33,133 bases of DNA from Candidatus Puniceispirillum sp. GTDB taxonomy: Bacteria; Electryoneota; RPQS01; DYHQ01. The notes below the pieces were generated by a model. It was not told where the DNA came from. It was given only the letters and a program-made list of their open reading frames with translations, and did no database searches. This document shows positions 2-11,157 of the stretch, piece by piece. The stretch lies in contig DYHQ01000001.1 in NCBI GenBank assembly GCA_020724065.1, forward strand, positions 90,782 to 123,914, read 5' to 3'. Within the stretch, counting starts at the first letter, position 1. Every line of letters starts with the position of its first letter. The translations under genes were made by a program, and so were the position numbers.

Positions 2-502
2 CACAATAGCTACCCCGATTCGGGAGCTTTGCGAATCTTTGAGATTGGACTGCATGGCCGAGTGATTCGGTTCATCTATGCGATGGCCGCCAATGATCCG
101 GAATCTTCTCTGGCGATCTGGCTGAAAACGAAGAGCCGAATCAGGGAGATGGGAGTGGTCATTGTTCTCCTGCACACTCGCGCCGACCGCTATGACCGAG
201 CGCTGCAGCTCTTGGAAATGATTCGCGACGGGATGGTGAATGAATTCGACTACCTCTTCTTGACCGGTGAGAAATGTTCCAGTGTATTTGCCGCGCTGCC
301 ACGCTATGGACTTGACCAGAGAAAGGCTCTGAAATTGGGTCATGCAACGCCGCCCCATATCTATCACGAAGCGTTGGAGCGTGTGCCGTCCGTGGGAACA
401 GTCTTTGGTATAGGTAATGTCGGAGCGGGGGGATTGGAAATTGTTCGCTATTTTCGAGACCAGCGTACCGACCTTGCTTCAGCCGGGAAGGGAACAACCT
501 GA
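2..502 (+). CDS. pgsB: Poly-gamma-glutamate synthase PgsB/CapB, C-terminal part
   Basis: The frame is open to the left edge, so the real start lies outside the window; about 166 C-terminal residues are present. PgsB is the ATP-dependent, Mur-ligase-like amide ligase that polymerises glutamate through its gamma-carboxyl at the inner face of the cytoplasmic membrane. Seen here: an AANDPESSLAIW stretch, a VIVLLHTRADRYDRA stretch, and near the end GIGNVGAGGLEIV, all at the places expected for the C-terminal domain of the family. Identity is reinforced by pgsC and pgsW directly downstream (50 nt to pgsC). The N-terminal P-loop cannot be checked. A TTG at 29 could be mistaken for a start but lies inside the domain. 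Confidence 0.88.
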   Translation, partial: HNSYPDSGALRIFEIGLHGRVIRFIYAMAANDPESSLAIWLKTKSRIREMGVVIVLLHTRADRYDRALQLLEMIRDGMVNEFDYLFLTGEKCSSVFAALPRYGLDQRKALKLGHATPPHIYHEALERVPSVGTVFGIGNVGAGGLEIVRYFRDQRTDLASAGKGTT

Positions 503-552: not shown

Positions 553-1008
553 ATGATCGAGCTCTCGATTGGTTTGGGTGTTGTCTTTAGTCTCGTTTTC
601 AATGAGGTTTTTGGAGCGGCTGCCGGCGGCATCGTGGTGCCTGGATACATCGCGCTTCATCTTCATGAGCCGTTGCGGCTCATCGGAACTTTCGTTGTCA
701 GTTTTGTCACCTTCTTGGTCATACGATTCATTTCGCAATTTCTCTTCATCTATGGGCGCCGCAGGCTGGTGCTCGCAATTCTTCTGGGATTCATTTTCGG
801 CTACATCAGCCGCCAAATGATTTTCTATGAGATGTTTTCCATGGACATGCGCCTGCAAGCCATCGGCTTCATTGTTCCGGGGCTTATCGCCAATTGGTTC
901 GAGAGACAAGGGATCATAAAAACCATTACGGCTATGCTGATCGCCGCTTCCTTCGTTCGGTTGCTTGTGATTCTGCTCACGGGCGGGAGGATTTTTGGCA
1001 ATGTTTAG
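553..1008 (+). CDS. pgsC: Poly-gamma-glutamate biosynthesis protein PgsC/CapC
   Basis: A 151-residue, very hydrophobic protein with about four to five membrane segments, close to the usual size of PgsC. PgsC is the small integral-membrane partner of PgsB; together they form the catalytic core of PGA synthesis. The N-terminus (ELSIGLGVVFSLVFNE) followed by a GxAAGGIVVPGYIAL segment is characteristic of the family. The ATG at 553 follows a purine-rich GGCGAAGGAAAA stretch. The gene ends within the first codons of pgsW, which suggests translational coupling. Confidence 0.93.
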   Translation: MIELSIGLGVVFSLVFNEVFGAAAGGIVVPGYIALHLHEPLRLIGTFVVSFVTFLVIRFISQFLFIYGRRRLVLAILLGFIFGYISRQMIFYEMFSMDMRLQAIGFIVPGLIANWFERQGIIKTITAMLIAASFVRLLVILLTGGRIFGNV

Positions 1009-2119
1009 GCCTTCCAGACGCTCGATTTGGACTCTCATTATCCTGGCGGCTGCAAGTTTTGGGTTTTTCCAAATTGTGGAGCAGCGACGAACTCTCTATC
1101 GCCAGCCGTGGTATCCCGAGAAGATTCAGGCCGCCAGACTTGCCGCGCATGGCTTGGAGGCTTTGCGGGGAGAACGACTGCAAAAAGGCATCTTTTCGCG
1201 CGAATACGAAGATCCACGCTTGGCGGCAATCATTGGCCAACAGTTCTCGCTTGTTACAACGGATTTCGGAGTCTTCGAGGCGAAGGTGGCGGGTGCGAAT
1301 CCGAATTTCGCCGCCGTGGCAGTGGATCTACTCAAACAGGCAGACCTCAAGGCCGGGGATTTCGTGACGATTGGATGCAGTGGCTCGAATCCCGGCGTCA
1401 ATTTGGCGGTCTATGCGGCGTGTGAGGTGTTGGAGCTTCGCCCGCTTGTCATCACATCCATCGGGAGCTCCTGGTGGGGTGCGAACGACCCGGATTTCAC
1501 TTGGCTTGACATGGAAGCGATTTTGGAACGCCGCGAGCTCATCCATTTTCGGTCCTTGGCCGCTTCGATGGGAGGCGACAAGGACGATGCAAAGGGGCTC
1601 TCGCAAGTCGGTAAAAAAATGTTGCAGGACGCGGCGGACCGCAACGGCATTTCTCTTATCTCCGAGTCGAGACTTGAGAATTCGATTCAGAGGCGCATCG
1701 AGCTGTTCGAGAAGGCGGCGGCTGGGGCACGCATCAAAGCGTACATCAATATCGGGGGTGGCCTGGCAAGTCTCGGTCACTCCGAGAACGGAGCTCTGAT
1801 TCCCACCGGATTCAATCGGCATCTTCCTCTGAAGAATTACCCCGCTCGAGGTGTCGTTCATTACTTCGCCCGTCGGGGAACTCCGATTATCCATTTTTAC
1901 GATATTCTCCGTCTTGCACGCGAATATGGATTGGGTCCACCGCATGTTCGGCTGCCGGAAGTGGGCACAGGAGCCGTCTTCGTCGAAGAGCGCTACAATA
2001 TGCGGCTGGCGGGAATCGGAGCTGCAGCCATTCTTATCCTGCTGCTGGCTGTTATCAAACTGGACGAGCGCCTATTCCGCTTGAAGGAAGAGGGCGTTGA
2101 TCCAGATACTCTGATGTAA
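1001..2119 (+). CDS. pgsW: Poly-gamma-glutamate system protein PgsW
   Basis: About 372 residues. There is an N-terminal membrane segment near residues 12-28, a long extracytoplasmic region rich in short Gly/Ser turns (GCSGSNPGVNLAV, TSIGSSWWGANDP, INIGGGLASLGHSE), and a second membrane segment near the C-terminus (GIGAAAILILLLAVIKL). This layout and position match the PgsW family, which occurs in pgs loci of non-Firmicute bacteria; its exact activity is not established. ATG 1001 overlaps the end of pgsC by 8 nt, with a GGGAGG 10 nt upstream. An in-frame TTG at 995 is an alternative start. No pgsA/capA-like metallophosphoesterase follows, so PgsW and the next two genes occupy its usual place. 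Confidence 0.85.
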   Translation: MFRPSRRSIWTLIILAAASFGFFQIVEQRRTLYRQPWYPEKIQAARLAAHGLEALRGERLQKGIFSREYEDPRLAAIIGQQFSLVTTDFGVFEAKVAGANPNFAAVAVDLLKQADLKAGDFVTIGCSGSNPGVNLAVYAACEVLELRPLVITSIGSSWWGANDPDFTWLDMEAILERRELIHFRSLAASMGGDKDDAKGLSQVGKKMLQDAADRNGISLISESRLENSIQRRIELFEKAAAGARIKAYINIGGGLASLGHSENGALIPTGFNRHLPLKNYPARGVVHYFARRGTPIIHFYDILRLAREYGLGPPHVRLPEVGTGAVFVEERYNMRLAGIGAAAILILLLAVIKLDERLFRLKEEGVDPDTLM

Positions 2120-2164: not shown

Positions 2165-3091
2165 ATGAATAGCATGATCACAAAGTGCTGGGTCAGACGA
2201 TTGTTGATGGGACTTCTCCTGCTAAGTGTCGCAGGGGGTCTCGGGGCCAAGGCATTCTGGCGGAGCCTCACGCCTCAGCAGTTTAAGAGGAAAATCACTC
2301 TCCGGATTTCGGAGAAGAATCGCACCTACTATGTTCTCGAAGACGATACCGAAATCACGATGAACATTTCGGGGCCGACGAAACTCCGGATCCTGTCGAG
2401 GATTGAGATTCCATCCTCAAAAAAGGAATCGCGTTACACATACTTGGTTCGCCGAGATGATGGCGAATGGGTCGAATTCAGCCGGCGCGGTGTCGCCTCG
2501 ACGCAGGCGCATGTCGAGCGCAGCAATTCAAAGAAAATATCGCTGGTAGAAAAGCACATTCTCAAGGTGCCCACAGGGTCTCACACCTATTCCTTCCGTC
2601 TTCCGAAAGAATCCTCTCCTCCCGTGTTTCTGCGTTTTCACCAAGAGGAAGGGGATATTGGTGCTCCGACGAACATGGTGGCCATTACTCCGCAGGTTTC
2701 GAGCGAAGCGATTGACCTTGTCATTCGGGAGGAGGTGACCACCTATTATCGCTTGGGAGAGGGTAACGAAATTGCTCTAAGACTGATTGGCCCTGCGACT
2801 CTGAAAGTCCTGGCACGCCTCGAGTTCTACCCTGACATGCGCGGGCAGCAAGATTTCCGGGTGCAGATCTTTGAAGATGGTCTTATCAAAGGAACTTATT
2901 CTTTGCCGACCATTGAGTCCGATGTCTGCCAATATCAGCAAACCTCAAGCCTTGTACCGGGGAAAGCCGAGACTTTCTATCTGGAAATTCCCAAGGGCGA
3001 ACACGACTATCGGTTCACCCTGCCCAACAGCTACCGTTCCGTCCTGCTAAAATTCCTGCTGCCAAAAGAGAATCTCAGCGGAAAGCCATGA
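2165..3091 (+). CDS. Secreted protein with two tandem beta-rich repeats, PGA-locus associated
   Basis: Not a family I recognise. 308 residues with a signal peptide (two Arg, then hydrophobic residues 13-25, cleavage near GLGAKA). The mature part is an internal duplication. Unit A spans about residues 44-159 and unit B about 183-298. Both run through the same order: a TYY strand, SGP/IGP-TLK-L-R-E, then VPTGSHTYSFRLP in A against IPKGEHDYRFTLP in B, and a final LRF/LKF strand. The offset of about 139 residues is constant. SD GAGGAG lies just ahead of ATG 2165. The gene overlaps the downstream barrel gene by 4 nt (ATGA). A periplasmic or outer-membrane-associated partner in PGA handling is inferred from location only. 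Confidence 0.7.
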   Translation: MNSMITKCWVRRLLMGLLLLSVAGGLGAKAFWRSLTPQQFKRKITLRISEKNRTYYVLEDDTEITMNISGPTKLRILSRIEIPSSKKESRYTYLVRRDDGEWVEFSRRGVASTQAHVERSNSKKISLVEKHILKVPTGSHTYSFRLPKESSPPVFLRFHQEEGDIGAPTNMVAITPQVSSEAIDLVIREEVTTYYRLGEGNEIALRLIGPATLKVLARLEFYPDMRGQQDFRVQIFEDGLIKGTYSLPTIESDVCQYQQTSSLVPGKAETFYLEIPKGEHDYRFTLPNSYRSVLLKFLLPKENLSGKP

Positions 3092-4194
3092 CGGGATTGG
3101 CGCGCTACGGTTATGTTGCTGTGGTCGTATTCCTGGCAGTCCTTCCGGGTTATGCTCGCCAGGAGACGCGAATTCTCGGGGCGAATTGGTCACTGTCCAC
3201 GGAGCTCTGGAGTGGCTATGTGGACAACGCCATTCGGCTTTCCGATGCGGACATTGACCGTTTTCAAGATGGGACTCAATCCTTCGAGTCGCCCCTTCAG
3301 ACCTACGATGACTGGAAAAACGAGCTGGTCATTCAACCCCGGCTGAGGTTTCGCCTGCCTCAACGCCAGCGGTTCGATATTGCCTATTCCTTCAAAGGGG
3401 CGCTCTTTCTGCGCAACGATTTCCTCAACTATCAAACCCACACACTCAATTTCTATTTGCGCCCCGCATCATCGCGTTATCCCTGGCTACTGAACTTCCG
3501 CGTTTTCACAATTCCCTCGTACTACCTGCGCCAACACTATGACCGCGATACTCAGGCATTTCATGCCGCCCGTTTTCAGAGTTGGCAATACCGCTTCGCT
3601 CCTCGGTTCCGCTTCTGGATGCCCCTGTGGATTGAACTGCGTGGTGAAATCGAGACGACCTACTACAATTCCAAGTTCACCGAATATGACAGCGACATGA
3701 GCAGCCTGGGCATTCGAGCGGAGTACCGCAGTCCGCGGCCGATAAGCCTTGCTCTTGGCTATTTGCGCAATCGCTCGGAGAACATCGGATACCAGCAGAC
3801 GGGCGCCGTTGAGTGGGGATTGGTGAACCTACCCGGAGTGGAGACGGAGTACGGTGATGCTTCTTTTGATGAGGATGAATTTCAAGCGGAAGTGTCCGGC
3901 CGCATTGCGATCATTGCGTCGGTTCCGGTGAGCGGCGGCGTGGACTGGCAACTTCGCCGACGCATCTACACAACAAAACGCTCCATGGATGAGGATCCAT
4001 TCCATCGCGGACGACTGGATAGGAGGTGGAAACTCGCTCCTTCGTTGACGATGACTCTCAGACCAAGAGTGAACTTGACCTTCGGGTACAGCTATGAGCA
4101 GAGGACGACCACAAGCGACATCTCCAGGGTCGAGGAGATTAAGAGTTTTCAGGTTCGTCAGATTTTCGGAGCCATAGAATATAGATTTGAATGA
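3088..4194 (+). CDS. Predicted outer-membrane beta-barrel protein of the PGA locus
   Basis: 368 residues with a signal peptide (hydrophobic residues 8-20, cleavage near PGYA-RQ). The mature chain has no long hydrophobic helix. It alternates polar and aromatic residues in strand-like blocks (RFRLPQRQRFDIAYSF, LNFYLRPASSRYPWLLNF, FRFWMPLWIELRGEIETTY) and ends with IFGAIEYRFE, close to the aromatic C-terminal strand typical of outer-membrane barrels. No family name is assigned. Its ATG overlaps the stop of the upstream duplicated protein, so the two are probably co-translated. By position it could be the outer-membrane conduit or anchor for PGA. It could also be a generic porin; no sequence feature proves substrate. 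Confidence 0.7.
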   Translation: MTGLARYGYVAVVVFLAVLPGYARQETRILGANWSLSTELWSGYVDNAIRLSDADIDRFQDGTQSFESPLQTYDDWKNELVIQPRLRFRLPQRQRFDIAYSFKGALFLRNDFLNYQTHTLNFYLRPASSRYPWLLNFRVFTIPSYYLRQHYDRDTQAFHAARFQSWQYRFAPRFRFWMPLWIELRGEIETTYYNSKFTEYDSDMSSLGIRAEYRSPRPISLALGYLRNRSENIGYQQTGAVEWGLVNLPGVETEYGDASFDEDEFQAEVSGRIAIIASVPVSGGVDWQLRRRIYTTKRSMDEDPFHRGRLDRRWKLAPSLTMTLRPRVNLTFGYSYEQRTTTSDISRVEEIKSFQVRQIFGAIEYRFE

Positions 4195-4290
4195 AGTCCT
4201 TGCTTTGGGCGGGAAGGAGAAAACCACAGATGCTAAGTCATGATCTTCTGCTTGGCGTGGGTAGACTTCTAAACACCTTTCGCTCAAGCG

Positions 4291-4316
4291 AAGCCCGAGC
4301 CGGTTAGCTCGGGCTT
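4291..4316 (+). terminator. Hairpin ending the pgs operon
   Basis: A perfect 10-bp stem (AAGCCCGAGC / GCTCGGGCTT) with a 6-nt loop lies 96 nt after the barrel gene, followed by GTCTTT. The U-tract is short. It lies between convergent operons, so it may also stop thyX transcription from the other side, although that side has no clear T-run. Confidence 0.6.
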
Positions 4317-4385
4317 GTCTTTGGGATCCCCTAAAGAGGGGCGGAGAAGAACTCTTGTCCATGACTACTCTTGTCGTGGATTCGT

Positions 4386-5936
4386 TCAGAAGTCTCCCTC
4401 TCCTCCTTCCATAAGTCGCTGGTATGTGGACTCAAATTTGTCTTTCCCGCATGCCAGACGCATCATGTTTGGCCACACCTTGCGCGCTTCATCCATCATG
4501 TGACAAACAAGCTGTCGAATCTCCCACTGGGCGTGAGAGTCCTGGCGGAGCCGTGCCATGTGATAGAGTTCACGGGCGTTCACTTGGAGCATGACACGCC
4601 GCATGTGCGAGTTGGTCAGGAGATACGGAGCGACGGCAGGCGTTTCCTCCACGAATTCCTCGCACACCGTGCTAACATGGCGCACCAATCTGACAAATTC
4701 GTCCGACAGCCCTGCCTCCACAATGGCGGGCGGAACAACCGCTCCGTCATGTGCCCTATACGGTGCGGGCACGAGAGTCATCATTCGATGGCGCTTGAGT
4801 TGGGCAAAGCATGATGCAGAAACCTTCACCTGGAACTGTAGGGTAGCCAGCTCAAACTCGCGGGGGGCCGGCTCGTGTAGACTCATTCCTCGGAGAACGC
4901 TCTTCCAGAAATCCGGCGGAAGTTGTTCCGGATTGAATTGAATTCCGTAGCGGAATGCGAGCCCCTCGGCAACCGTCCTTTCACCCTGCGGGGTTGCCCC
5001 GACGAAAACAACTTCCGGGCATGAATAAAATTGCAGCTCCTGCACGAAGTGCGTCGAGGAGTAGTCTCGTGCAGTACGGAGCTGATCTTGCCATCGGAAA
5101 TCGCTTGGCTGAACATATTTTATGAGTGACGGGGCGAGAGGGCGCACCGCCTTGCAGAGTTTTTCGCCCAAAAGTCTCATTTCGGCGAGCGCGTGTCCGT
5201 TGAATTCCCGCAGGATGTATTCAAGGTTGCGAGCGTTCAGCGTCAGTCCCATTTGAGTTGTCGTGGCCAGTGGGAGAAGATATCGAGCATCCTCCTTGGC
5301 TCGATTTTCCTGATCGCGCCGCGCGAGATTCTCCCGAGCTTCACCTTCCTTCTCGATAAGCTTTCGATGAAGCCTTTGATAGAAGTGGTGATAGGCCGAA
5401 AAGAGCGTTTGAACCTCGGCATGAAAGCGAGCCTCGCAAGAAATTGCCTTCAGCTCCTCAGGAACCACATAATCCTCCGAGGCCGTGACATAGCGCTGGG
5501 ATTTCTCAGTGAAGGAAAGAAGGCGATGAGACTGAAGCTCTTCGGTGGCAAGCCGTGATAAGCCCAGAATGTCCATATTGAAAACGGCATGTTCGGCTAC
5601 GGAGGCGTGACCAAGCCCGAAGATGATCGCCTCATTGCTCTTCCGAGCTCCGGTGATGCTTTCTCGCGCAGCGCGCCGAAGCTCCGGAACAGGTTTTGGA
5701 TCACGACTAATTCGTGCGTAGGCCGCCGAGAGCACTTCCGGCGTCAAGGGATGGCTCGCCAGAGATTCATAGGTGGCGCGGCAAAGATCCGCCAAGAGCC
5801 GTCGCAGGTCCTCATCACTCATTCGTTGAAGCTCATGGGGATCAACTTCTCGCTGGATAAAGTCCAGGATCTGTCGTGTCTCAGCGAGAGCTTCGGCGTC
5901 AACATTATATCCGGCAAGGAGAACTTGGAGAGGCAT
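4386..5936 (-). CDS. thyX: FAD-dependent thymidylate synthase ThyX, tandem two-domain form
   Basis: ThyX methylates dUMP to dTMP using methylenetetrahydrofolate and FADH2. This 516-residue protein is about twice the usual 210-250 and carries two ThyX-like halves. The first half has GHASVAEHAVFN (residues 109-120), SHRLLSFTEKSQRY (136-149; the canonical RHRxxSxxExSxRY with the first Arg changed to Ser) and LATTTQMGLTLNARNLE (223-239). The second half has LKRHRMMTL (380-388) without the ExSxRY continuation, then QVNARELYHMARL and SHAQWEIR (about 451-474). The signature residues are thus split between the halves, suggesting composite active sites within one chain. Its start lies 3 nt after the endonuclease V stop, so the two are co-transcribed. 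Confidence 0.85.
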   Translation of the reverse strand: MPLQVLLAGYNVDAEALAETRQILDFIQREVDPHELQRMSDEDLRRLLADLCRATYESLASHPLTPEVLSAAYARISRDPKPVPELRRAARESITGARKSNEAIIFGLGHASVAEHAVFNMDILGLSRLATEELQSHRLLSFTEKSQRYVTASEDYVVPEELKAISCEARFHAEVQTLFSAYHHFYQRLHRKLIEKEGEARENLARRDQENRAKEDARYLLPLATTTQMGLTLNARNLEYILREFNGHALAEMRLLGEKLCKAVRPLAPSLIKYVQPSDFRWQDQLRTARDYSSTHFVQELQFYSCPEVVFVGATPQGERTVAEGLAFRYGIQFNPEQLPPDFWKSVLRGMSLHEPAPREFELATLQFQVKVSASCFAQLKRHRMMTLVPAPYRAHDGAVVPPAIVEAGLSDEFVRLVRHVSTVCEEFVEETPAVAPYLLTNSHMRRVMLQVNARELYHMARLRQDSHAQWEIRQLVCHMMDEARKVWPNMMRLACGKDKFESTYQRLMEGGEGDF

Positions 5937-5939
5937 GAT

Positions 5940-6647
5940 TCAGTCGCTCTCTTTCACACGGACTTGATTCACCAACTTGTGCGCCCAACGAACCGGCTCG
6001 GGCACGCGGTAATAAGGGGTCGTCCGCATTACCCAATCCACAGCCTCGTCGAGAGTGATTCTGTGGCCGACGGAGACATAGAGTGGCGCAACACCTGTAC
6101 GCGTGCGCACAACGGCACCCACCACTTCGCTCTCGAGCGTCAGCGGCGCTCTTCCTCCTCGTTCATTTGCAGGTTCGACATGCTCGCCGACGAGTCGGCT
6201 CTTTGCACAGCCGATAGATGGGCAATCGAGAGCAACTCCCAAATGGCATGCGAGACCGAATCGCCGGGGATGCGCTATGCCCTGTGCATCGCAGATGACA
6301 AGGGCGGGTTTTCGAGAAAGTCTCTCAAAAGCAGGAAGAAGCAGCGGCAATTCTCGAAAACTCAGATAGCCTGGAACATAGGGAAAAGAGATCGAACCTC
6401 GGAAACTTGCCTGGTCAACGATCTTGTATGTGAGAGCATCGCATACGACCACTCCTCCAATTCCCCAGTCGGAATTCATATCACAAGAGACATCGGCCCC
6501 AGCAATCAAGCGTATTTCAGAGGATAGGGTGACAGACTGGACACGCTGCCTAAGATTTTCCTGCAATTTTTTTGCTTCCTGAACCGAAGAGGCATGAACA
6601 GGGCAAACAGAGGACATTTCAGGATATGGAACTGTTGAATTCGTCAT
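5940..6647 (-). CDS. nfi: Endonuclease V (deoxyinosine 3' endonuclease)
   Basis: 235 residues, the usual length. Endonuclease V nicks DNA, and in some organisms RNA, one nucleotide 3' to inosine, removing deaminated adenine. Family landmarks in order: AGADVSCD (Asp 52), FPYVPGYLSFREL (residues 88-100, wedge Tyr and catalytic Glu), ICDAQGIAHPRRFGL (Asp 120), IGCAKSRL (Lys 149), VSVGHRITLDEAV (His 195), VPEPVRWAH. The ATG at 6647 gives a slightly long N-terminus; Met 11 is an alternative. First gene of a minus-strand pair with thyX. Confidence 0.94.
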   Translation of the reverse strand: MTNSTVPYPEMSSVCPVHASSVQEAKKLQENLRQRVQSVTLSSEIRLIAGADVSCDMNSDWGIGGVVVCDALTYKIVDQASFRGSISFPYVPGYLSFRELPLLLPAFERLSRKPALVICDAQGIAHPRRFGLACHLGVALDCPSIGCAKSRLVGEHVEPANERGGRAPLTLESEVVGAVVRTRTGVAPLYVSVGHRITLDEAVDWVMRTTPYYRVPEPVRWAHKLVNQVRVKESD

Positions 6648-6873
6648 TTGGAACGCTCAAGAAGGAAGAATGGGGTCTCCTCATGCTCCAATCGAAGTGA
6701 ATGGTGGAAAATCCTGCACTGATTTTGAGGAAAACTAGCGCCACATGGTGCATTTCTATTAATAATAGATACTTACTGGTCGTTCGCGCGGCAAAAACCA
6801 TAATTAGACGCGTCCAAAATGCCCTCCAATTTGGCCCGGGAAGCTGGTGCAAGGAAAGGCTGCCACGGAGGAC
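6648..6873. other. AT-rich divergent intergenic region
   Basis: This stretch separates endonuclease V (-) from the tRNA-Leu/purM side (+). It should contain the nfi promoter reading leftward, but I see no convincing -35/-10 pair on the minus strand. It includes an AT-rich patch around 6750-6772. Short open frames here lack ribosome binding sites and protein-like composition. Confidence 0.5.
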
Positions 6874-6902
6874 TTGTTTTTTGGATTTTTTGTTTGTATA
6901 TT
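6874..6902 (+). promoter_or_regulatory. Sigma70-type promoter upstream of tRNA-Leu
   Basis: TTGTTT at 6874-6879, a 17-nt spacer, and TATATT at 6897-6902 inside a T-rich tract. The predicted start is near 6909, ahead of the nested hairpin at 6925-7001 and tRNA-Leu. The same TATATT box and spacing occur ahead of rimP and the MerR gene. Confidence 0.5.
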
Positions 6903-6924
6903 TATGTAGCGCGATAGGAAGTTT

Positions 6925-7006
6925 GGAAACCACCGGATTGCGTTTGCTTTGATAATTGGCCCCCCACGATTATCAAGCTCCGCCCTTTGCCGGTGGTTTT
7001 CTTTTG
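6925..7006 (+). ncRNA. Nested hairpin with T-tract: small RNA, terminator or tRNA leader
   Basis: Outer stem 6925-6936 with 6990-7001 (core AAACCACCGG / CCGGTGGTTT, extended by one G-T and one G-C pair). Inner stem TTGATAAT (6949-6956) with ATTATCAA (6969-6976), extended by GC/GC across one bulged T. The outer arm is followed by TCTTTT. With the promoter ending at 6902 this predicts a transcript of about 100 nt from near 6909. I do not recognise it as SRP RNA, 6S RNA, tmRNA or a known riboswitch. It may instead be the 5' leader of tRNA-Leu. Confidence 0.4.
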
Positions 7007-7020
7007 GCGGAAAGTCGCTC

Positions 7021-7106
7021 GCCGGGGTGGTGGAATTGGTAGACGCAGGAGACTCAAAATCTCCCGGGGTATAAGCCCCATGCCGGTTCGATTCCGGCCC
7101 TCGGCA
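7021..7106 (+). tRNA. tRNA-Leu(CAA)
   Basis: A complete class II tRNA. Acceptor GCCGGGG pairs with CCTCGGC (7099-7105), discriminator A at 7106, no encoded CCA. The anticodon arm is GGAGA-CTCAAAA-TCTCC, giving anticodon CAA (reads UUG). A long variable arm (CGGGG..CCCC) is typical of Leu. The T arm is GCCGG-TTCGATT-CCGGC. Confidence 0.97.
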
Positions 7107-7115
7107 CGATGCGCT

Positions 7116-7144
7116 TGCCTCGCGAAAATCCGCGGGGCATTTTT
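7116..7144 (+). terminator. Intrinsic terminator after tRNA-Leu
   Basis: A 9-bp stem, TGCCTCGCG with CGCGGGGCA (one G-U pair), with a 6-nt loop, directly followed by TTTTT. It lies 9 nt past the tRNA and separates it from the purM promoter. Confidence 0.85.
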
Positions 7145-7207
7145 GTTGCCGTGAGGTGTCAGTAATATAGCATATTTTCATGCAAATTCAAGGCAGCCTT
7201 TTTTTCC

Positions 7208-7236
7208 TTGACAATGGGGCGCAGATTTCGTATGAT
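7208..7236 (+). promoter_or_regulatory. Near-consensus sigma70 promoter of purM
   Basis: TTGACA (7208-7213), an exact 17-nt spacer, and TATGAT (7231-7236): the best promoter match in the window. The usual start distance puts +1 at about 7243-7245, on the purM start codons at 7242/7245, so the mRNA would have no 5' leader. Confidence 0.8.
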
Positions 7237-7241
7237 TGGGC

Positions 7242-8249
7242 ATGATGGTGGACTACCGACAGGCAGGGGTTGACATTGAGAGGGCATCGGCCGCAAAACA
7301 GCTTATTGCTGCCCATGCGAAAACGACATTCACTTCGTCAGTGCTGCGGGACGTTGGACATTTCGGCGGCTTCTTCCGATTGCCGCAAGACGGACCTGCG
7401 AAATCCGTGTTGGTCGCCAGCACCGATGGTGTCGGAACGAAACTTCTTCTTGCCAATACACTGGGCCGACTCGAAAACATCGGCGAAGATCTCGTTCATC
7501 ATTGTATCAATGACATTTTGACTTGCGGAGCGCTGCCACTCTTTTTTTTGGACTACATCGCTTTTGGCAAATTGGAGATTGCGAAGGTGGACGCCATCGC
7601 GGGAAGTCTGGCTCGCGCGTGTCGCACATACCACATGGCGCTCATCGGTGGTGAGACCGCCGAGATGCCCGATTTGTATGGCGATTCTGATTTTGACCTC
7701 GCGGGTACGATCGTGGGTTGGGTATCCGAGGATGCTATCCTCGATGGCAGCCGGGTCACTGATGGAGATGTGCTGCTCGGCTTGGCTTCAAATGGCTTGC
7801 ATACCAACGGTTATAGTCTGGCTCGAAAGGTCTTCGCCGCCGAGATTGGAAGTGGTGAGCTGAGCAGACACGACCCTGTGCTGAATGAATCTCTTGCGGA
7901 TGCTCTCTTGAAGTCTCATCGGTGTTACTTGAGTGTCGTCAAGCCATTCTTGGGAGAAGATTTCCTGCATGCCATGGCGCATATCACGGGGGGAGGCATC
8001 ATAGACAATATTCGTCGCGTTTTACCGAAAGGACTGAGAGCTGAGGTGGATTGGCAAGCATGGCAGCAGCCTCAAATTTTTCAGCGCCTGGCATTGAAAG
8101 GTACTATTAGCGAAGGCGAAATGCGCCGCGTTTTCAACCTCGGCATCGGCTTTGTCTTGATTGTGAGCGAGGAAGCAGAGACGGTCATTTCGTCATGCCT
8201 TCGACAGAACGGTGAGCAGGTCTATCGAATCGGACAGGTCATCGCGTGA
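7242..8249 (+). CDS. purM: Phosphoribosylformylglycinamidine cyclo-ligase (AIR synthetase)
   Basis: About 335 residues. PurM closes the imidazole ring in step five of purine synthesis (FGAM + ATP to AIR), in the cytosol. Motifs in order: an N-terminal DYRQAGVDIE, VASTDGVGTKLLLAN (nucleotide loop), INDILTCGALPLFFLDY, GGETAEMPDLY, LASNGLHTNGYSLARK, HITGGGIIDNIRRVLP. Start choice: ATG ATG GTG at 7242-7250; an in-frame TTG at 7236 overlaps the -10 box and is unlikely. No ribosome binding site precedes it, consistent with a leaderless message. It overlaps plsY by GTGA. Other pur genes are not in this window. Confidence 0.95.
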   Translation: MMVDYRQAGVDIERASAAKQLIAAHAKTTFTSSVLRDVGHFGGFFRLPQDGPAKSVLVASTDGVGTKLLLANTLGRLENIGEDLVHHCINDILTCGALPLFFLDYIAFGKLEIAKVDAIAGSLARACRTYHMALIGGETAEMPDLYGDSDFDLAGTIVGWVSEDAILDGSRVTDGDVLLGLASNGLHTNGYSLARKVFAAEIGSGELSRHDPVLNESLADALLKSHRCYLSVVKPFLGEDFLHAMAHITGGGIIDNIRRVLPKGLRAEVDWQAWQQPQIFQRLALKGTISEGEMRRVFNLGIGFVLIVSEEAETVISSCLRQNGEQVYRIGQVIA

Positions 8250-8863
8250 ATTTCTTCCTCCTGCTTTTTCTCGGCTATCTGATTGGGGCTCTACCGACTG
8301 GAGTCATCGTCTGCCGGATTCTCAAGAAGACAGATCCGCGCCGCATAGGCTCAGGAAGTACAGGAGCAACGAATGTCTCGCGCCTGTTGGGCACAAAGTG
8401 GGGTGTTCTCGTTCTCGGAGTGGATTGTCTTAAAGGCTACTTGCCAGTCGCTTTGTTGGCGCCTGCTTTGGTGGAGGTTGAGGGAGTTGAATTGGGGAGG
8501 GTGCTTGTGGGTGTTGCCGCGGTTCTCGGTCATGTATGGACTGTTTTTGGAGCGTTTCGCGGAGGCAAAGGCGTGGGAACTTCGGCAGGCGTTATGCTGG
8601 CTTTGGACGCGACGAATTTGGCTATATGTCTTGGAGTGTGGCTTGCTGTCTTCTTGGGCTTCCGGATCGTATCGCTTGCGTCTCTTTCGGTGGCTTTGGC
8701 ATTTTCAGTCCTTAGCTGGTTCTTGGCAGGACGATCTATGGAACTGAGAACAGCGAGCATCTTCTTTGCACTTCTTCTCTTCTACACGCATCGCCAGAAC
8801 ATCGGTCGCTTGCTTAAAGGAACAGAATTGCCTCCGGGGCGTGGAGGAATTACATGCGCATAG
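8246..8863 (+). CDS. plsY: Acyl-phosphate glycerol-3-phosphate acyltransferase PlsY
   Basis: 205 residues of integral membrane protein. PlsY transfers acyl chains from acyl-phosphate to the sn-1 position of glycerol-3-phosphate, the first committed step of phospholipid synthesis in most bacteria. Motifs: GYLIGALPTGVIV, GSGSTGATNVSRLLG (residues 32-46), and GHVWTVFGAFRGGKGVGTSAG, the conserved phosphate-binding loop. It starts with GTG overlapping the purM stop. The pairing with gpsA, which makes its glycerol-3-phosphate substrate, is a common arrangement. Its end overlaps gpsA by 10 nt. Confidence 0.94.
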   Translation: MNFFLLLFLGYLIGALPTGVIVCRILKKTDPRRIGSGSTGATNVSRLLGTKWGVLVLGVDCLKGYLPVALLAPALVEVEGVELGRVLVGVAAVLGHVWTVFGAFRGGKGVGTSAGVMLALDATNLAICLGVWLAVFLGFRIVSLASLSVALAFSVLSWFLAGRSMELRTASIFFALLLFYTHRQNIGRLLKGTELPPGRGGITCA

Positions 8864-9852
8864 CTTGTTTGGGTGCGGGCAATTGGGGGACAACACTGGC
8901 CATTCTGTTGGCCGAAAAAGGTCATTCTATCCGGCTTTGGGAATACCGCAGGGACTTGGCTGAAGAAATGGCCAAGCGGCGCGAAAATCGGTTGTATCTT
9001 CCATCATTTCGTTTGCCCGAATCCATTGCGGTCACTCATGACTTGAATACCGCCGTTGAGTCAGCAGAAATTCTGCTGCTGGCAGTGCCGTGCCAGACGG
9101 TGCGCTCGATTTGTCGTCAGTTAGGTGAATGCAAGTTGCAGGTGCGATATCTTGTGTCGGGCGTGAAGGGTATTGAAAAGGAGTCACTGCGTCGCGTTTC
9201 AGAGATCATCGGGGAAGAATTGCCGGTTTTGAGCGGTTCCAGCTACGCCACGCTGTCCGGGCCAAGTCTTGCTCTTGAAGTAGCATGGAGACGACCCACC
9301 TCTGTTGTGATAGCTTCGACATCTCTCGATATGGCAAGAGAAATGCAGGAGGTTTTTTCGGCCCCTTTCTTTCGCGTCTACGCCAGCGAAGATGTCGTGG
9401 GAGTTGAACTGGCGGGGGCGCTGAAGAACATCGTGGCGCTTGCTGCCGGCATTTGTGACGGTTTGGGGCTCGGAATGAATACAAAAGGAGCCCTGATTAC
9501 ACGGGGACTGGCCGAAATTGCTCGGTTGGGTGAAGCTCTGGGCGGGAAACGAATCACCTTTGCCGGTCTGTCCGGCATGGGCGACCTTATAACAACCTGC
9601 ACGAGTCCTCTAAGCCGGAATCGTCGTGTTGGCGAGGCTTTGGCAAGGGGGAAGCAATTGGAAGACATTTTGCGGGAGATGGTCATGGTCGCCGAGGGGG
9701 TGCCGACGGCGCAGGCGGGCCAAGAGCTTGCACGCCGACACGGCATTCCCATGCCAATCACCGACGCCGTGTGCAAAGTTTTGTTTGAGGGAAAGCCGCC
9801 AAGCCAGGCGGTGGAAGAGCTCATGATGCGAAAACTTAAAGTGGAAGATTAG
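8854..9852 (+). CDS. gpsA: Glycerol-3-phosphate dehydrogenase [NAD(P)+]
   Basis: 332 residues, full length. It reduces dihydroxyacetone phosphate to sn-glycerol-3-phosphate for phospholipid synthesis. An N-terminal Rossmann fold carries GAGNWGTTLA. Next come LLAVPCQTVR, VSGVKGIEKE, LSGPSLALEVA, then the catalytic Lys in ELAGALKNIVALAAG and GLSGMGDLITTCTSPLSRN. The ATG at 8854 follows GGAGG at close spacing and overlaps the end of plsY. Confidence 0.95.
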   Translation: MRIACLGAGNWGTTLAILLAEKGHSIRLWEYRRDLAEEMAKRRENRLYLPSFRLPESIAVTHDLNTAVESAEILLLAVPCQTVRSICRQLGECKLQVRYLVSGVKGIEKESLRRVSEIIGEELPVLSGSSYATLSGPSLALEVAWRRPTSVVIASTSLDMAREMQEVFSAPFFRVYASEDVVGVELAGALKNIVALAAGICDGLGLGMNTKGALITRGLAEIARLGEALGGKRITFAGLSGMGDLITTCTSPLSRNRRVGEALARGKQLEDILREMVMVAEGVPTAQAGQELARRHGIPMPITDAVCKVLFEGKPPSQAVEELMMRKLKVED

Positions 9853-9867
9853 AAAGCAACTTTACGA

Positions 9868-11157
9868 ATGCAAACCTATATTTCAGGCATCGCAGCGCAG
9901 GAAGGAAAAAGCGCCACACTCAAGGGCTGGCTCTATAATATCCGCTCCGGTGGCAAGATACGCTTCCTGCTCGTGCGTGATGGTACAGGGATTATCCAGT
10001 GTGTGGCGTCTCAGGCCGATGTCGGCGAAGAAACCTTTGAATTGATTGACACCCTCACTCAAGAATCCTCAATCGAGGTCACCGGCACTGTGCGTGCGGA
10101 CAAGCGTGCTCCCGGAGGATATGAGCTTGTGATGACCAAGCTCGAGCTTGTCGGTCGGGCTGCGGATTATCCCATCACACCCAAAGAACACGGCACGGCT
10201 TTTCTCATGGAGAATCGGCATCTCTGGGTGCGCAGCCGGCGACAGGCTGCGATTCTGCGTGTTCGCCACGAAATCGTCCGTGCGATTCGCGACTTCTTTG
10301 ATGACCGGGGTTTTGTTCTCTTCGATACGCCGATTTTCACACCCGCTGCGTGTGAAGGAACCTCGACGCTCTTCGAGACGGACTATTTCGGTGAGAAGGC
10401 ATATCTCACTCAATCGGGTCAGCTCTATGCCGAATCCGGGGCCATGGCGTTGGGTAAGGTCTATTGCTTTGGGCCTACTTTCCGCGCGGAAAAGAGCAAG
10501 ACGCGTCGCCATTTGATTGAATTCTGGATGGTCGAGCCGGAGGTCGCCTATCTCGATTTGGACGGCGACATGGAGCTTGCCGAGGATTTTGTTTTCTATG
10601 TCGTCGAGCAAGTGCTCGCGAATCGCAGGGAAGAGCTCGATATCATCGAGCGCGACACAAGTCCTCTGGAGAAAATCAAGAAACCTTTCCCGCGAATTTC
10701 CTACACCGAATGTGTGGACATTCTCAACAAAGCGGGGCATCCATTCCAATGGGGAAACGACTTGGGAGGCGATGAAGAAACCATCGTGTCGTCTCAATTC
10801 GAATCGCCGGTGATGGTGCATCATTTTCCCGCAGAAATCAAAGCTTTCTATATGAAAAACGATCCGCAAGATGAGCGGCTTGCGCTGGGATTTGACATGT
10901 TGGCCCCGGAGGGCAAGGGGGAGATTATCGGCGGCGGACAGCGCGAAGATGATTACGATATGCTCGTCAAGAAGATTCAGGCACATAATCTTCCTCTCGA
11001 AGCATTCGATTGGTATCTCGATTTGCGCAAGTATGGAACGGTTCCGCATGCGGGATTCGGACTCGGTCTGGAACGCACAGTCGGTTGGATATGTGGACTA
11101 TCGCATGTGCGAGAGACGATTCCCTTCCCGCGAATGCTGCATCGTCTGAAGCCCTGA
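9868..11157 (+). CDS. asnS: Asparaginyl-tRNA synthetase
   Basis: 429 residues, class IIb aminoacyl-tRNA synthetase charging tRNA-Asn. An N-terminal OB fold ([20 protein letters not shown]) binds the anticodon. The catalytic core follows, with [25 protein letters not shown], motif 2 [19 protein letters not shown] and motif 3 [17 protein letters not shown]. The motif 2 neighbourhood WMVEPE is typical of AsnS rather than AspS. ATG 9868 lies 15 nt after gpsA with no clear ribosome binding site. Confidence 0.94.

Follow-up and report, generated by a model that had tools for sequence, protein, structure and literature searches.

A conserved five-gene cassette as a candidate route for poly-gamma-glutamate across the outer membrane of FCB-group diderms

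How does a poly-gamma-glutamate (PGA) chain leave a cell that is enclosed by two membranes? The question is raised by a pgs locus at the beginning of a 33,133-nucleotide stretch of DNA (the window) from a 2.33 Mb draft genome of the phylum Electryoneota, in which two further genes directly follow those for PGA synthesis. Many diderm phyla are known to carry genes for PGA synthesis, and no outer-membrane component for the polymer was found described in the literature searched, which lay mostly outside subscription journals.

The 3′ part of pgsB, the gene of the poly-gamma-glutamate synthase ATP-dependent amide ligase (TIGR04012), occupies positions 2..502 of the + strand. It is cut by the window edge and starts upstream; in the assembly, the full gene (L002:6085-7284) encodes 399 residues that score 382.8 bits against TIGR04012 (NCBIfam curated cut-off of 222.7). 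It is followed on the same strand by pgsC/capC (553..1008), encoding the inner-membrane subunit of the synthase (TIGR04011, 131.5 bits, cut-off of 96.45; Pfam CapC, 7.8e-36), and by pgsW (995..2119, starting at TTG 995 or ATG 1001), whose product, beside PgsBC, reaches 294.9 bits against TIGR04332 (cut-off of 100) and has no Pfam match. PgsW comprises an N-terminal hydrophobic segment, an extracytoplasmic domain and a C-terminal hydrophobic segment, the hydrophobic ends being conserved in the sequences of the family. After a gap of 45 nt come, again on the + strand, genes X (2165..3091; 308 residues) and Y (3088..4194; 368 residues), which overlap by 4 nt (ATGA). The earlier note had described pgsB-pgsC-pgsW followed by two genes with a 4-nt overlap, and the open reading frames and their coordinates confirm this layout. 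All families of the phylum, and other phyla too, retain the B-C-W-X-Y order, which is not due to chance.

About 100 nt after Y, a G+C-rich hairpin with a weak T tail (4291..4316, + strand) possibly marks the operon end; the region 4280-4330 folds with -24.7 kcal/mol (z of -3.1), and a consensus terminator scan did not call the hairpin. The genes in the following part of the window (4386-9852) are ordinary, comprising a convergent thyX (4386-5936, - strand), endonuclease V (- strand), a purM-like AIR synthase, plsY and gpsA. Upstream of the window, a RodZ-like protein, recognised by eye from a helix-turn-helix and a membrane segment, is encoded directly before pgsB (L002:5037-5936), and the sister genome (L054) has a comparable gene before its pgsB.

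Neither X nor Y matched a Pfam or NCBIfam family above cut-off, and profiles of the two families revealed no solved relative in the PDB. Assignments of X to Arrestin_N (0.004) or AMPK1_CBM and of Y to BBP2_2 (0.013; below the Pfam cut-off) were rejected, since all were below cut-off and inconsistent among homologues. In X, a signal peptide precedes what the model, the half-to-half homology and the family alignment indicate to be a tandem-duplicated β-sandwich. The two halves align to each other with an hhalign probability of 99.7 (E of 2.8e-25), and the model displays two β-sandwiches (pLDDT of 91.3) whose mutual orientation is uncertain (pTM of 0.54). As judged from sequence and model, a β-sandwich domain has been duplicated in tandem to give X, and the “two beta-rich units” of the earlier note are homologous. 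Structural search with Foldseek matched X to tandem carbohydrate-binding modules and, further down the list, to BcsB (PDB code 7l2z). The Y protein combines a signal peptide with a predicted outer-membrane β-barrel, as read from the model, Foldseek and the family alignment. The model contains 14 transmembrane strands (mean pLDDT of 89.8); the barrel that had been predicted earlier was thus obtained, and both hallmarks of outer-membrane β-barrel proteins, a signal peptide and a closed antiparallel barrel, are found in sequence and model. An N-terminal hydrophobic stretch is present in 60/62 homologues, and a C-terminal aromatic residue lies within the last three positions in 43/62. The best structural matches of Y were CymA, OmpG (TM of ~0.48 for these two) and other porins, with PgaA (PDB code 4y25) also among the matches.

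To describe the pore, the usual orientation with a periplasmic N terminus was assumed, and lumen-facing residues were assigned by strand parity, not by coordinates. On this basis the lumen-facing net charge of the window protein is +5, and the family averages +1.6, ranging from -7 to +10. It had been asked whether the pore is cationic: no strongly cationic lumen emerged from this count across the family, and what it supports is a group of conserved basic residues near the outer mouth. Near-invariant R148, R292 and R339 are predicted to point inwards; they sit at the outer end of the barrel, as do R309, H306 and K352. The extracellular loops L1, L4, L6 and L7 and the adjoining strand ends hold most of the conservation, the conserved residues of the outer side being N47, S52, R148, F197-D201, R292, D303, H306, R309, R339 and K352; the periplasmic turns are variable (mean conservation of 0.19-0.43). 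A single-protein scan of the genome contigs with Y gave no matches, because sequences within the family differ too much (mean distance of 0.75) for short patterns to work.

The association of X and Y with PGA synthesis was followed through 39 genomes of Electryoneota and near relatives (Candidatus Electryonea, LCP-89, Tariuqbacter; PMC10439189). TIGR04332 is present in 39/39 of these. Gene maps reveal a constant B-C-W-X-Y block in all eight families of the phylum, surrounded by varying genes; beside pgsBCW, 36 X and 35 Y homologues were located, with X and Y mostly spaced within ~10 nt. Whole-genome searches placed X and Y in the same 37/39 genomes, each with a single Y and only two with a second X, and homologues were almost never found away from the pgs locus. 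The additional X copies are unlinked (G018:C95:47745-48656 and G006:C130:28578-29462). PgsC is present in exactly the same 37 genomes, and the other two (G030 and G036) lack X, Y and PgsC, and their only PgsW is of a second type, described below. The distribution of X and Y across genomes therefore follows that of the synthase. Compared with one another, the distance matrices of the five proteins (B, C, W, X and Y) give correlations of 0.78-0.90, values uncorrected for species phylogeny.

The cassette extends far beyond the phylum. A pattern from the alignment of type-1 PgsW (an alignment mixing both types yielded none) was used to scan GTDB, identifying 237 PgsW loci; the 80 that most resembled type-1 PgsW were read. 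The full five-gene set is found in 62 of these best 80, the remainder being mostly ends at contig edges or fusions; by their record titles, the best 80 of the 237 come from Bacteroidota, Cloacimonadota, Neomarinimicrobiota, KSB1 and others. In an independent sample of 154 bacterial genomes outside the phylum, PgsW was detected in 15, and PgsC in the same 15. Both X and Y were present in 11/15 genomes with PgsW and in 0/139 without it (Fisher p of 6.8e-14), a contrast to be read with the X and Y profiles built largely from pgsW-adjacent sequences, which tilts detection mildly towards such genomes; single weak matches were to Y in G135 and to X in G051. Two outgroup genomes (G041 and G189) have W, X and Y dispersed and keep them all, so that co-occurrence is independent of linkage. 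Four further PgsW-bearing diderms (G044, G062, G068 and G192) are without X and Y, which are thus not obligatory for every PgsBCW; in G192 (L173), pgsBCW is followed by a permease and a hydrolase resembling the second PgsW locus, so another arrangement exists. The adjacency of X and Y to pgsBCW that the earlier note wished to see examined across phyla is borne out, and almost no homologues occur in genomes without pgs genes. Its diderm setting also held; its restriction to a single diderm did not, the module being widespread in FCB-group bacteria.

Fusions bring the same proteins together. PgsW and X form a single protein of 670-686 residues in L149, L167 and L168, and an X-type domain precedes the Y barrel in L149, L161, L167 and L168, with similar X+Y proteins in G095, G106 and G142. 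X is thereby linked to both membranes. Omp85 is encoded in 18/18 genomes checked, that of the window included, and these genomes are therefore diderm. PgsW-bearing genomes without X and Y all carry Omp85 as well, and an explanation of them as monoderms was rejected. In the window genome, no match to PgsA/CapA (PF09587) was found.

The second type of PgsW has a signal peptide and no C-terminal membrane segment. In the locus at L059:6594-10714 (- strand), and in L071, L052 and L057 (of the same order as the window), its gene lies between those of a gamma-glutamyltransferase (TIGR00066, 436 bits, cut-off of 358) and a TRAP-like permease, and in L071 a gene for a deacylase-like hydrolase follows the locus. 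No X or Y was found at the second PgsW loci of the phylum. From its gene content, this locus is likely catabolic and a candidate for PGA breakdown or recycling.

Taken together, these observations suggest, with a probability of about 60%, that pgsB-C-W-X-Y encodes a dedicated trans-envelope secretion route for PGA, or for a close gamma-linked acidic polyamide, in FCB diderms. The gene order, the single-copy co-occurrence, the fusions, the duplication within X, the confident models and the diderm host carry this proposal; we infer the identity of the polymer, the direction of transport, the physical contacts and conduction by Y. The chain would be made at the inner membrane by PgsB and PgsC and handed over by PgsW, which, anchored in the inner membrane with a large extracytoplasmic domain, would fill the place of Bacillus PgsA/CapA. 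X is proposed to act as an adaptor in the periplasm: it would receive or shield the chain and connect PgsW with the barrel in the outer membrane. Y, proposed as the PGA exit channel, would release it through the 14-strand barrel, past the conserved basic residues near the outer mouth. Counting against this reading are the four PgsW-bearing diderms that lack X and Y, the weak and variable charge of the lumen, the focus of conservation on outer loops, with His, Asp and Ser among the residues, which would equally suit an enzyme, and the modest number of strands. Passage or attachment of PGA at the outer membrane had been suggested earlier for the two genes; co-occurrence, fusions and the barrel model support such a role. 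The closest experimental hint to the identity of the polymer comes from Cloacimonadota, where cells were seen to be surrounded by a DAPI-stained matrix interpreted as PGA and only CapB, CapC and CapA were named (PMC13082233); we found that Cloacimonadota carry the B-C-W-X-Y cassette.

The chief rival to export, and a live one although we consider it unlikely, is that Y acts on the cell surface as an enzyme or anchor, an omptin- or PagL-like barrel with a CapD-like function, which cuts, trims or attaches PGA presented by X. The pattern of conservation would suit such a protein, with near-invariant N47, S52, D201, D257, D303, H306, R309 and K352 in predicted extracellular loops or outer strand ends and unconserved periplasmic turns. 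Surface processing is also suggested by the neighbours of the cassette outside the phylum, where a gene for a C25 gingipain-like peptidase, often with a T9SS sorting tail for export, lies near 42/59 pgs loci and an LVIVD-repeat protein is encoded directly after Y in 30/46 loci with Y (for example L098:796-4593 and 9710-10741; also L102, L105, L132, L133, L161 and others). However, searches of Pfam and PDB profiles gave no consistent match of Y to omptin, PagL or any enzyme family, its best Foldseek matches are transport porins, and the polymer would need some other exit, of which none is co-encoded. The C25 peptidase and the LVIVD protein, a surface-type lipoprotein, are possible surface-side partners. 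In the window genome there are ten C25 matches, one of them on the contig that carries pgsB, ~15 kb upstream of that gene; as none of these roughly ten copies lies in the stretch around the pgs genes, the peptidase was rejected as a cassette member in this phylum. There is a slim chance that, throughout the FCB group, PGA exported by X-Y is coupled by these partner enzymes to proteins or lipids on the cell surface, in which case it would be a covalent surface tether, not a free capsule.

Other readings leave the route in place and change its cargo, or take X and Y out of it. That a different gamma- or amide-linked polymer is exported, built from another amino acid or consisting of a peptide conjugated to another molecule, is improbable: the specificity of PgsB is unreadable from sequence here and PgsW replaces PgsA, but PgsB and PgsC lie well over the curated PGA cut-offs and a PGA-like matrix has been reported for Cloacimonadota (PMC13082233). 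We regard it as very improbable that Y is a channel through which gamma-glutamyl oligomers are taken up as nutrients. The phylum does possess a locus with a permease, a gamma-glutamyltransferase and the second PgsW, yet X and Y are missing from this catabolic-looking locus and stay beside the synthase genes, which argues against uptake and for outward transport; in addition, the Y model has no plug domain of the TonB-dependent type. A general role in the envelope for X and Y, as a porin and a binder of lipids or glycans that lie in the operon by coincidence, is most improbable. Their Foldseek matches are indeed generic porins and carbohydrate-binding modules, but single-copy, near-perfect co-occurrence with PgsC and PgsW that persists when the genes are unlinked, the fusions, the joint loss in G030 and G036 and the complete lack of X+Y pairs among outgroups without PgsW all speak against it.

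Under the export reading, X and Y are concrete and widely conserved candidates for the crossing of the outer membrane by PGA, a step that becomes testable through two genes. They also serve as markers by which complete PGA-export loci can be annotated in Electryoneota, Bacteroidota, Cloacimonadota, Neomarinimicrobiota and their relatives, many of them uncultured.

The cassette shares with Bacillus pgsBCA(E)/capBCA(DE) a compact operon and PgsB and PgsC homologues above curated cut-offs, and differs in having PgsW for PgsA/CapA, two added envelope genes and a diderm host; in profile searches, Bacillus subtilis gave a match to PgsC and none to PgsW. With the omptin and PagL barrels, which are smaller than the 14-strand Y, Y has in common conserved polar and acidic residues plus a histidine on the extracellular side, without any sequence relation. 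CymA and OmpG, its best Foldseek matches, have the same number of strands, whereas Y has ~10% identity to them, no profile match, an operon shared with a synthase and other conserved loops. PgaABCD, AlgK-AlgE and BcsB-BcsC each combine an inner-membrane synthase, a periplasmic adaptor and an outer-membrane barrel in one operon. The present cassette resembles these in its combination of synthase, proposed adaptor and barrel and in the fold matches of Y to PgaA and of X to BcsB. In contrast, it has no sequence homology to them and no TPR in the models of X or Y, its adaptor is a tandem β-sandwich and its polymer a polyamide. Known polysaccharide exporter barrels have 16-18 strands, so that Y, with 14 and with an open state that is only presumed, is smaller. 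Homology and TPR thus place the cassette outside those families, and it would work like synthase-dependent polymer secretion.
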